From Candidatus Bathyarchaeota archaeon (lineage in GTDB: Archaea; Thermoproteota; Bathyarchaeia; 40CM-2-53-6), in the NCBI GenBank assembly GCA_005881615.1, contig VBBR01000169.1:1-37848 (forward strand): a stretch of 37,848 nt of DNA, given 5' to 3'. The notes under the pieces are model-generated. The model worked only from the letters and a program-made list of their open reading frames with translations. It had not been told where the DNA came from and did no database searches. Positions within the stretch are counted from its first letter, which is position 1. Every line of letters begins with the position of its first letter. The translations under genes and the position numbers were made by a program. Of this stretch, positions 663 through 9,336 are shown piece after piece.

Positions 663-770
663 TGCGGGAGGTGGGATTCGAACCCACGAACCCCTACGGG
701 ACAGGCGCCTCAGGCCTGCGCTTCCAAGACCCAACAGAGGGTCTCTTTGACCTGGCTTGGCAACTCCCGC
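663..770 (-). tRNA. tRNA-Leu (anticodon GAG) with 23-nt intron in the D-arm
   Basis: Minus strand GCGGGAGTTGCCAAGCCAGGTCAAAG-[intron]-GCGCAGGCCTGAGGCGCCTGTCCCGTAGGGGTTCGTGGGTTCGAATCCCACCTCCCGCA. Acceptor GCGGGAG/CTCCCGC, anticodon stem CAGGC/GCCTG, loop CTGAGGC, long variable arm, T-loop GGTTCGAATCC. Mature length 85 nt. Confidence 0.93.
722..744 (-). other. Noncanonical tRNA intron (D-arm, about position 23/24) with BHB motif
   Basis: Intron AGACCCTCTGTTGGGTCTTGGAA. Outer helix GACCC/GGGTC, 3-nt bulge AG^A, 4-bp central helix TCAA/TTGG, 3-nt bulge AA^G. Removal restores D-stem G10C11C12/G23G24C25. Confidence 0.88.
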
Positions 771-4970: not shown

Positions 4971-5015
4971 TAGACAGCCCCAGCAACGATTCTCTATCGG
5001 AACCATCGTCCAGTA

Positions 5016-5250
5016 AGGTTCTGTCAAGTCTTCGGTTGTTCGAAGACTAGACTTGCTCTCATCGACTCCGGGGATTACCGTCGTCATCGGGTTCCCTTTC
5101 ATTGCTTCACTTGAGAGCCCTTGCGCCTCAGAGACACTTGACCTCTTTTCGGCAGGGAACGGTCGAACCTCAACCGCCCCCTCACGCCCGCAGCGTGGTA
5201 GCTTAGCCCATTGCCAGGCAAGAATTTTACAGTGGCCAACCAACCAGGGT
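5016..5250 (-). ncRNA. Orphan omegaRNA-like TnpB 3'-end element (truncated tnpB remnant)
   Basis: Core cgactccggggattaccgt...catcgggttccc...ttca.tgcttca shared with the 3' end of the intact tnpB. Stem pairs GCTCTCA/TGAGAGC (5055-5061/5112-5118) and CAAGTCT/AGACTTG (5025-5031/5049-5055). Minus-frame remnant LPRCGREGAVEV...EAMKGNPMTTVIPGVDESK matches the TnpB C-terminus. Confidence 0.65.
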
Positions 5251-5478
5251 ATCCCAGTTCAGACCCGTCACGCGATCAGAATCACCTCCCCCAGCGTAAC
5301 AGGGCTCATTTTGACGAACGCCCCCTAACGAATAACCGGTCACTCCGCGAACATAACGGTTAGAGACGACCGAAGAACAAGAAACAGCACCGAAAAGTTG
5401 ACAGTGCCTCCAGTAACAACATGCTCATTCCGGAGAATCTAGTCATGACCGTACATATCCCTCAGGGGTTGACCCTTC

Positions 5479-6111
5479 CTGGCAGTACAGAGCACAGAGC
5501 TAGTAGTTCAAGAGACGGGAAGTCGAAGCGCCGAACTTGTCTTCGGCTCTATAGATGGGCTGTTTTCTGTCCTCGGCATCATTTCAGCAGCAGGCTCAGC
5601 AGCACTCATACCAGTCCAAATCTTCGCAACAGGTGTGGGGGGAGCGGTCGCTGGTGCACTCTCCGTTTTCGCTGCAACCTACCTATCCGAGACGCATGAA
5701 AAGAAAACTCAGCTACTGGAAGCGATAACAAGGACGAACCGCCAGAGGTCAAGGCAAACCAACAGCAACAAGAAAAAACCGGTTCCCCTCACAGCTGATC
5801 ACCCAAAAGTCCATCGATTGTTGGGAAAAATCAATCGAAGAGCGTTAGGCTCCGGAATAGTGACGGCTATCACGTCCGCTCTCGCATCCTTGGTCTTGTT
5901 GTTTCCCCTGGTAATATTTCCCGACACGTATGCTGTAACCGCGTCAATAGTCATAGGGGTGGTATTGCTCTTCTTGCTAGGAGCATTCCGAGGAGTTACC
6001 TTGAAACAGTCGGCCACAAAATCCGCGGTGAAAATGGTCATCTTAGGAATTCTGGTAATACTGGCGAGTAAGGTCCTCGGCTCCTACGTTCTGAAACTCG
6101 TAACCCAGTAG
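5479..6111 (+). CDS. VIT1/CCC1-like metal transporter family membrane protein
   Basis: Open frame from 5473 gives ELVFGSIDGLFSVLGIISAAGSAALIPVQIFATGVGGAVAGALSVFAATYLSETHEKK, then two or three C-terminal TMs. No ATG/GTG/TTG before GTG 5635, so the start is uncertain (CTG 5479?). Confidence 0.7.
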   Translation: MAVQSTELVVQETGSRSAELVFGSIDGLFSVLGIISAAGSAALIPVQIFATGVGGAVAGALSVFAATYLSETHEKKTQLLEAITRTNRQRSRQTNSNKKKPVPLTADHPKVHRLLGKINRRALGSGIVTAITSALASLVLLFPLVIFPDTYAVTASIVIGVVLLFLLGAFRGVTLKQSATKSAVKMVILGILVILASKVLGSYVLKLVTQ

Positions 6112-7932: not shown

Positions 7933-8013
7933 TCCTGAAGCTCATCTGAAGAATTCGTACCAATCTCTAGCGACCATTTGGACGATCACAGAAATGTGGA
8001 GAGAAAGAATCCC

Positions 8014-8135
8014 AGGTTCTGTTAACTCTTCGTCTGATGAGTTAGCTTCGGGGCATCGACTCCGGGGATTACCGTAGGCATCGGGTTCCCCTTCACTGCT
8101 TCAAATGCCCCGCCTTGCGCCTCCAGTAGGATGGG
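8014..8135 (-). ncRNA. Predicted omegaRNA scaffold overlapping tnpB 3' end
   Basis: Stems CGGGGCAT/ATGCCCCG (8049-8056/8105-8112), TAACTC/GAGTTA (8023-8028/8039-8044) and GCCTCC/GGAGGC upstream. Covaries with the orphan copy at 5016-5250. Confidence 0.7.
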
Positions 8136-9227
8136 AGGCCGGGAACGTGCGAACCTCACCCGTCCCCGCCGAGACAGGTTAACAGCTGCTACCCTGTCCC
8201 GGTCCATTACTACTCGACATTTACCACACCAGAGCTTGCGTTCTAGTTGTGTGTCTGATTGGAGTCTCTCCCCGCATCTCGGACAAGTCACACTGGAACC
8301 TCTGGTCTCGCTCCTGGACAAACGGATAACCGGTAGTCCAGCCCATCGCGCCTTGTACTCTATCTGCCGCTGAGCCTCTCCGAAGCTCCATCCGTTCATC
8401 CGGCCACGATACTTTCTACCCTGACCGTTACCCTTACGATAGAGGGACCGGATGCCCTCGATTTTCTCGAGAACTATTGCTGTTCTCCGCTGGACTGCCA
8501 GGGCGACGATCGTCTTTGTAGCGTTATGGAGCAGGTTACTAGTCCTAGACGTCCTTCGCTCTCCATACTTCGACGCTATTCTCGTTCTTATCCTGTCGTC
8601 GTTTCGTCTGAAAGAGGCGACGATACGCACCGAGGTCTTGGCTATTCCTACACACTTTGAGAGATCATAGTGACTTGTCTCTTGGTCGTTTCCGAACGTT
8701 AGATTGCGGAGATCACGGTCCACACCAACCGTGGAGGCACAGTTAACGGTGGGAGCATCCCGGGCGATGCAGAGACTCAGTCTGTTCCGGGTGAGAGTGA
8801 AAGAGCGAACCTTGACCCCTGACTGAGATATGATCTGGAGGGTATGATTGGTCAATGGAATGCTGAAACGTTTCCCTCTCGATACCGGAATTCTTAACCC
8901 TCCGTTCTCTATCTTGAATCCGTAGCAGGACACGAGTTGGGGTCTGACGGCGTATGGGGTCCTAGTGACATAACCTCTCCGGACAGACTTCTTCCTTGCC
9001 GCCAGGATTCCAGCGGCGCGTGATATTGCGCAGAGCTTGTAGTAGCTAGGGGAATCGTACTTGGCGAGCTGGTTGTATGAGAGGAGTGAGAGCTTTCTCA
9101 GCGATAACGCATCGTACAACAGACCGATACGCAGGGAATCGTTAACCATCCGTCTGAACAGGTCCAGCAACCGGAGAACACCAGCCACGGGAACATAGTA
9201 CTGCCAGACAGACTTGACAGCGAACAC
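8022..9227 (-). CDS. tnpB: TnpB RNA-guided endonuclease (IS1341-type, no TnpA)
   Basis: RuvC-I VGVDRDLRNLTFGND, RuvC-II IVLEKIEGI, Zn finger CPRCG...CGKC, RuvC-III DRDRVAAVNL. Confidence 0.92.
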   Translation of the reverse strand: MFAVKSVWQYYVPVAGVLRLLDLFRRMVNDSLRIGLLYDALSLRKLSLLSYNQLAKYDSPSYYKLCAISRAAGILAARKKSVRRGYVTRTPYAVRPQLVSCYGFKIENGGLRIPVSRGKRFSIPLTNHTLQIISQSGVKVRSFTLTRNRLSLCIARDAPTVNCASTVGVDRDLRNLTFGNDQETSHYDLSKCVGIAKTSVRIVASFRRNDDRIRTRIASKYGERRTSRTSNLLHNATKTIVALAVQRRTAIVLEKIEGIRSLYRKGNGQGRKYRGRMNGWSFGEAQRQIEYKARWAGLPVIRLSRSETRGSSVTCPRCGERLQSDTQLERKLWCGKCRVVMDRDRVAAVNLSRRGRVRFARSRPPILLEAQGGAFEAVKGNPMPTVIPGVDAPKLTHQTKS

Positions 9228-9336
9228 AACAAACGAGAAGCGCCATCATAGGCATAAGCCAGAGAGGCACCCGACGATAAGTTAACAGAGCCGAATCCCA
9301 CAAGGCTTATCTTGATTCCGCTCTCGCAGAAAACGC

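Follow-up and report, generated by a model that had tools for sequence, protein, structure and literature searches.

Does an omegaRNA-like sequence that stands without a TnpB body represent what is left of a tnpB gene after decay in place, or did it arrive as an element of its own? This question is raised by a locus on the minus strand of the window, that is, the whole 37,848-nt stretch of DNA analysed here, which belongs to a 'Candidatus Bathyarchaeota' MAG of 2.23 Mb (193 contigs, 89% complete) whose relatives are mainly soil 'Candidatus Bathyarchaeota' MAGs. Our analysis makes it likely that the locus is a MITE of IS6 type with an omegaRNA as its cargo, which an IS6-like transposase moves and whose RNA is presumably transcribed and served in trans by a TnpB.

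Borders, insertion and copies of the orphan element

A motif-free de novo search, which looked for inverted ends flanked by repeats, delimited the orphan as a 392-nt element with a perfect 8/8 target duplication (TSD), TCCAGTAA, and assigned the TnpB-bearing element its own 8/8 duplication, GAATCCCA (Table 1). Both the left and the right border of the orphan are sharp in the alignment of TnpB-less copies. An earlier sequence-only reading of the window had set the borders at 5016-5250; they have to be redrawn at 5017-5408, the left end having been overlooked along with the features that mark the locus as an element, namely the inverted repeats at its ends (TIRs), the 8-bp duplication and the TAM-like motif.

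Table 1. Coordinates of the features of the orphan element and of the TnpB-bearing element in the window.
Feature	Position	Strand	Remarks
Non-autonomous element, complete, 392 nt, family B	5017..5408	-	omegaRNA-like sequence, no gene; sharp ends in copies, TIR, 8/8 TSD
TSD TCCAGTAA, right-end side of orphan	5009..5016	.	single copy in empty sites
TSD TCCAGTAA, left-end side of orphan	5409..5416	.	single copy in empty sites
Right-end TIR of orphan	5017..5038	-	plus strand GGTTCTGTCAAGTCTTCGGTTG; doubles as 3' arm of terminal hairpin
Left-end TIR of orphan	5390..5408	-	element sense GGCACTGTCAACTTTTCGG
omegaRNA-like scaffold of orphan	5017..5240	-	3' 224 nt; from divergence profile, structure and covariation
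TAM-like TTG	5417..5419	-	directly before TSD, left-end side of orphan
Predicted guide	4997..5016	-	flank 3' of right end; first 20 nt TTACTGGACGATGGTTCCGA; begins with TSD
TnpB-bearing element, 1278 nt	8015..9292	-	same kind of ends as orphan; empty site in 2 congeners
TSD GAATCCCA of TnpB element	8007..8014	.	8/8
TSD GAATCCCA of TnpB element	9293..9300	.	followed by CAAGG on plus strand, TTG on element strand
tnpB, 401 aa	8022..9227	-	RuvC D170/E254/D344 and zinc ribbon intact; 3' end overlaps omegaRNA and right end

When the flanks of the orphan are joined without the element, they match contiguously in nine congeners, where TCCAGTAA occurs once, and the joined flanks of the TnpB element match two congeners contiguously. 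Therefore, both are insertions in this lineage and not remnants decaying in place. The common end AGGTTCTGT, previously ascribed to both copies, is indeed shared, except that its first A belongs to the TSD of the respective copy, as the final base of TCCAGTAA and of GAATCCCA; the sharing of this A is a coincidence, and the element proper starts at GGTTCTGT. The TnpB codons that had been taken for a remaining C-terminus are not open, as in the tnpB-derived part the EAxKGNP..TVIPGVD motif is in another frame than the GRLRFDRS motif upstream of it. A D7 repeat (5327-5340 vs 8321-8334), considered as additional tnpB homology, was dropped. A VIT1-like gene (window 5420-6111) begins immediately downstream of the left end of the orphan. 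Because its frame continues upstream beyond the GTG listed at 5635, where it starts is uncertain, and the insertion may have affected this start.

The full-length 392-nt element is found in six congeners (G004, G005, G011, G013, G014 and G015) at 78-86% identity. The genome itself holds about 33 copies of the shared 3' end, about a dozen of them with a TnpB zinc-ribbon domain nearby, these counts being lower bounds since copies were gathered by search. The smallest copy seen, on contig C87 (L013), is a 147-nt element with both ends, an 8/8 duplication and the 3' RNA core, and extends scarcely beyond that core and its ends. A 292-nt derivative on contig C140 (L046, 1799-2090) is a rare RNA-less copy, the one copy that lost the RNA core, with both ends, an 8/8 duplication and TTG. 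TnpB elements with the same kind of ends (GGTTCTGTTAACTCTTCG-like) were found in Bathyarchaeota, in Thaumarchaeota and on two Asgard contigs; in these other archaea they measure about 1.2-1.35 kb, have 7/8-8/8 duplications, and TnpB is the only recognised gene. The two Asgard contigs (L203 and L221, Asgard group archaeon LC30) carry 1.2-kb TnpB elements with TIR-like ends and 8/8 duplications, both preceded by TTG.

The omegaRNA-like scaffold and TnpB

The core that the orphan had been said to share with the tnpB copy is real, with 84% identity across 70 nt between 5060-5129 and 8054-8123, and so is the swapped stem with about five compensated pairs. This stem, P1, reads GCTCTCA/TGAGAGC in the orphan and GGGGCAT/ATGCCCC in the TnpB copy, and the pairing is kept. 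In a set of 60 distinct sequences, drawn from the genome itself, its congeners and other archaea, five P1 pairs are altered on both sides; compensated cells, which count sequences and not evolutionary events, number 132 compared with 58.8 in shuffles (0/500 as high), and the covariation score of P1 is 0.334 compared with 0.02-0.17 for slid partners. The signal comes mostly from one split between two families, with extra pair types (A-U, G-U) in other lineages. Substitutions in P1 inside the TnpB-less family are one-sided, and the claim of compensation holds between the families but not within that of the orphan.

Hairpin P0 and the terminal hairpin show compensatory changes within the TnpB-less family (23 cells vs 8.2 shuffled, 0/500). 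The earlier suggestion that the terminal hairpin covaries is upheld to this extent, although the hairpin overlaps the transposon inverted repeat, so that RNA and DNA constraints are mixed there and a constraint at the DNA level is possible. In 36 copies, divergence is mostly 2-15% in the 3' 224 nt and 12-33% in most 20-nt blocks of the 5' part, and singleton changes are distributed fairly evenly along the element.

These data support an omegaRNA-like fold under structural constraint. Judged by sequence comparison, the scaffold appears to be a conserved structured RNA that ends at the right end and is homologous to the RNA of TnpB elements. Conservation and covariation across copies bear out the view that this TnpB-less locus holds a structurally constrained RNA and is not a case of plain decay. 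An Rfam scan matched no family to the scaffold and found only a tRNA. The latter, a 108-nt feature at window 663-770 on the minus strand, was not reported by ARAGORN in its bacterial setting and is therefore probably intron-bearing.

Concerning the protein that might use such an RNA, the window TnpB scores 57.7 bits against PF07282 (cut-off 26.3) and 89.7 bits against NF040570, under the cut-off of 100; all three RuvC residues of an OMEGA nuclease are present, together with a zinc ribbon of the form CPRC..CGKC. The orphan scaffold is nearest to GRLRFDRS-type TnpB elements (80-83%), and its identity to the scaffold of the window TnpB 3 kb away is 78%. A GRLRFDRS-type TnpB with 61% identity to the window TnpB is encoded in the same genome (L016, contig C4:16642-17817), and its zinc ribbon is damaged, CPKY replacing CPxC; this protein, the closest that the genome has to the likely parent of the orphan, may be impaired. 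Use of the orphan RNA in trans by a TnpB is plausible, given the intact catalytic residues and zinc ribbon of the window protein, but the nearest scaffolds belong to the GRLRFDRS type and not to the neighbour 3 kb away that had been proposed as the partner.

Transposon ends and the one-sided TAM-like motif

The TIRs GGTTCTGTTAAC and GGCACTGTCAAC fit the description of IS6 in having a GG tip, G at position 7 and cTGTt, and the 8-bp target duplication is complete (8/8) in both window elements and in many relatives. IS6 elements are described as having GG tips, the motif cTGTt and duplications of 8 bp (PMC7986276), and archaeal IS6-like elements have GG, G7 and TIRs of at least 18 bp; Harmer and Hall held that these archaeal members should form a separate family (PMC6807381). 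MITEs with IS6 ends are already known (PMC7986276, PMC6807381).

IS6-like transposases (PF13610) were found in congeners and in the class, within elements that have a GGTTCTGTTAA-like TIR and an 8-bp TSD. Their best NCBIfam match is IS6 (124.9 for L119, where the cut-off is 125, and 102.8 for L118 of congener G005). The element L121 of congener G005 encodes an IS6-like DDE transposase between TIRs of the form GGTTCTGTTAGGTCTCCGG, with the 8/8 TSD AGCGAAGA, and congener G011 has one degraded IS6-like copy with the TIR GGTTCTGTTAACTCTT; wherever the ends of these elements could be delimited, in G005 and elsewhere in the class, they are GGTTCTGT-like and accompanied by 8-bp duplications. In a genome of the same order (G025, contig C37), two IS6-like elements, L122 and L119, lie back to back with TGCCGCGA common to the neighbours, an arrangement that resembles a tandem array on one duplicated target. 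An IS6-like transposase was found neither in this genome (89% complete) nor inside the orphan and TnpB elements, so the mover is deduced from the ends and duplications. The ends match IS6-like DDE elements and not Y1 (IS200/605) or IS607 elements. An IS200/IS605 element, which would have a Y1 TnpA, palindromic ends and no TSD, does not agree with the TIR, the 8-bp TSD and the failure to detect Y1 TnpA (PF01797; 0/16 genomes of the genus), and an IS607 element, with a serine recombinase and neither TIR nor TSD, does not agree with the TIR and TSD, as judged from the ends. The ISL3 transposase (8-bp TSD, GGCTCT tips), for which we searched because of the TIR, was not detected in this genome.

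The flanks were compared in 38 insertions with 7-8 matching duplication bases, a set compiled by hand (29, minus one member of a likely orthologous pair, plus 10) whose exact counts could shift by one or two; many of the automatic end calls that had few matching TSD bases are erroneous or reflect decayed ends, and such calls were kept out of the count. The triplet before the duplication is TTR in 28/38 and NTR in 35/38 insertions on the left-end side, compared with 2/38 and 6/38 on the right-end side (Fisher p 5e-10 for TTR and 9e-12 for NTR). When the TnpB-less copies only are considered, TTR stands on the left in 14/17 and on the right in 1/17 (Fisher p 1e-5). Eight IS6-like elements used as a control, mostly from other lineages and with T-rich flanks, have TTR on 2 of their 16 sides.

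In the empty sites of congeners, the orphan's 3' flank TTACTGGACGATGGTTCCGATAGAG follows TTG (36/36 nt match in two congeners and 34/36 in a third). Since the TAM-like triplet is seen on one side only, that of the left end, the empty site is what a guide made from the 3' flank would target, and the motif would lie directly before this predicted target. With DDE ends that are nearly symmetric, a target motif would be expected on either side. A motif on one side, adjacent to the guide, is predicted by survival or homing that depends on TnpB; an asymmetric target preference built into the transposase could also give this bias.

Proposed mechanism, alternatives and known systems

In the mechanism that we propose, an IS6-like DDE transposase would move the gene-less element in trans, and transcription toward the right end would run on past it, making the flank the guide. 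Each insertion would then yield a new guide against its own empty site, and a TnpB from a sister element would load the MITE RNA and cut unoccupied alleles, with the result that element-bearing alleles would be kept or copied in; TnpB-bearing elements of the same type would act likewise in cis. The occupied site would be protected, since its right junction has no TAM (ACC precedes the flank) and its left junction has just 8 nt in common with the guide. For the mechanism to work, the 8-bp duplication must have a TAM immediately in front of it at the left end, as was seen in the insertions.

A wider reading, which we offer tentatively, is that in archaea an IS6-type DDE transposon took up a prokaryotic TnpB-omegaRNA unit and that the gene-less omegaRNA MITEs are RNA-only homing parasites, using in trans an IS6-like transposase and the TnpB nuclease of a sister element, whose surviving insertions are set by empty-site cutting and not by transposase preference. 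TnpB has been treated as going together with a Y1 or serine TnpA. Since the TAM coincides with the target site of these enzymes themselves, it is hard to separate out an effect of TnpB on the places in which elements persist. A TAM on one side despite near-symmetric DDE ends offers a natural test of whether RNA-guided empty-site cutting shapes the spread of elements. Trans-acting omegaRNAs have been proposed for IscB, and a family consisting of guide RNA only provides material for testing such use in trans.

The same element might instead be passive, a MITE that arose from a TnpB element by internal deletion and is mobilised by the IS6-like transposase, its RNA a disused leftover of the parent and its left TTR a product of transposase target choice with non-equivalent ends. 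The precedent of IS6-ended MITEs (PMC7986276, PMC6807381), the one-sided P1 changes within the family, the fairly even spread of singleton changes and the left-side TTG that L046 still has without an RNA core would all fit. This account is nevertheless unlikely in our view: across species, the RNA part is several times more conserved than the bulk of the 5' part, compensation is seen in P0 and the terminal hairpin within the TnpB-less family, and the eight IS6-like elements lack the left-sided TTR.

Two further accounts have to be set against the ends of the element. Derivation from an IS200/IS605 element, as a PATE moved by Y1 TnpA, would agree with the terminal hairpin at the orphan's right end, with TnpB and omegaRNA being typical of IS200/605, and with a PATE of Halanaerobium made up of an LE hairpin, the last 58 nt of tnpB and RE (PMC7290912); it becomes very improbable because Y1 elements have neither TIRs nor target duplications (PMC3627910), both of which the orphan has, and Y1 TnpA went undetected in 16 genomes of the genus. 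Decay in place of a full tnpB copy to its 3' end, whether as a remnant or as a domesticated orphan RNA, is hardly credible. Homology to the tnpB 3' end speaks for it, and the sequence-only reading had framed the orphan in this way, but both ends are complete with an 8/8 duplication and the same 392-nt structure occurs at many sites in several species. With copies in six congeners and empty sites in nine, the orphan arrived as a 392-nt element.

Compared with the OMEGA systems of IS200/IS605 and IS607, this arrangement likewise has a TnpB with RuvC and zinc ribbon, a scaffold that overlaps the tnpB 3' end and stops at the right end, and a TAM-like motif before the empty site. It differs in having TIRs and 8-bp duplications, so that neither Y1 nor serine TnpA is indicated, in a guide that would open with the duplicated 8 nt, and in a left junction that retains the TAM and 8 nt of the target. 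With IS6 and its MITEs it shares GG tips, G7, cTGTt and 8-bp duplications, and the IS6-like transposase of the clade has the same kind of TIR; here, however, the elements carry tnpB plus omegaRNA, or the omegaRNA by itself, they enclose no transposase, and the insertions adjoin a left-sided TTR. The PATE-like IS605 derivative of Halanaerobium is also short and non-autonomous and keeps the tnpB end and the right end (PMC7290912), but it is a single copy with IS605 palindromic ends and no TIR or TSD.

In the openly licensed literature searched, we found no report of a prokaryotic TnpB on IS6 or other DDE ends, which is weak evidence of novelty, or of a multi-copy MITE consisting of guide RNA only; within that literature, a TnpB-type arrangement on DDE ends was found described only for Fanzors. 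Eukaryotic DDE transposons carry Fanzor1 and some Fanzor2, which are TnpB homologues, and these too are bounded by TIR and TSD and include Fanzor-only copies (PMC3627910, PMC10711439). The elements described here differ in their archaeal host, their IS6-type ends, the presence of TnpB itself and the additional copies with guide RNA only, and would represent an archaeal counterpart to the way in which DDE transposons of eukaryotes captured Fanzors.
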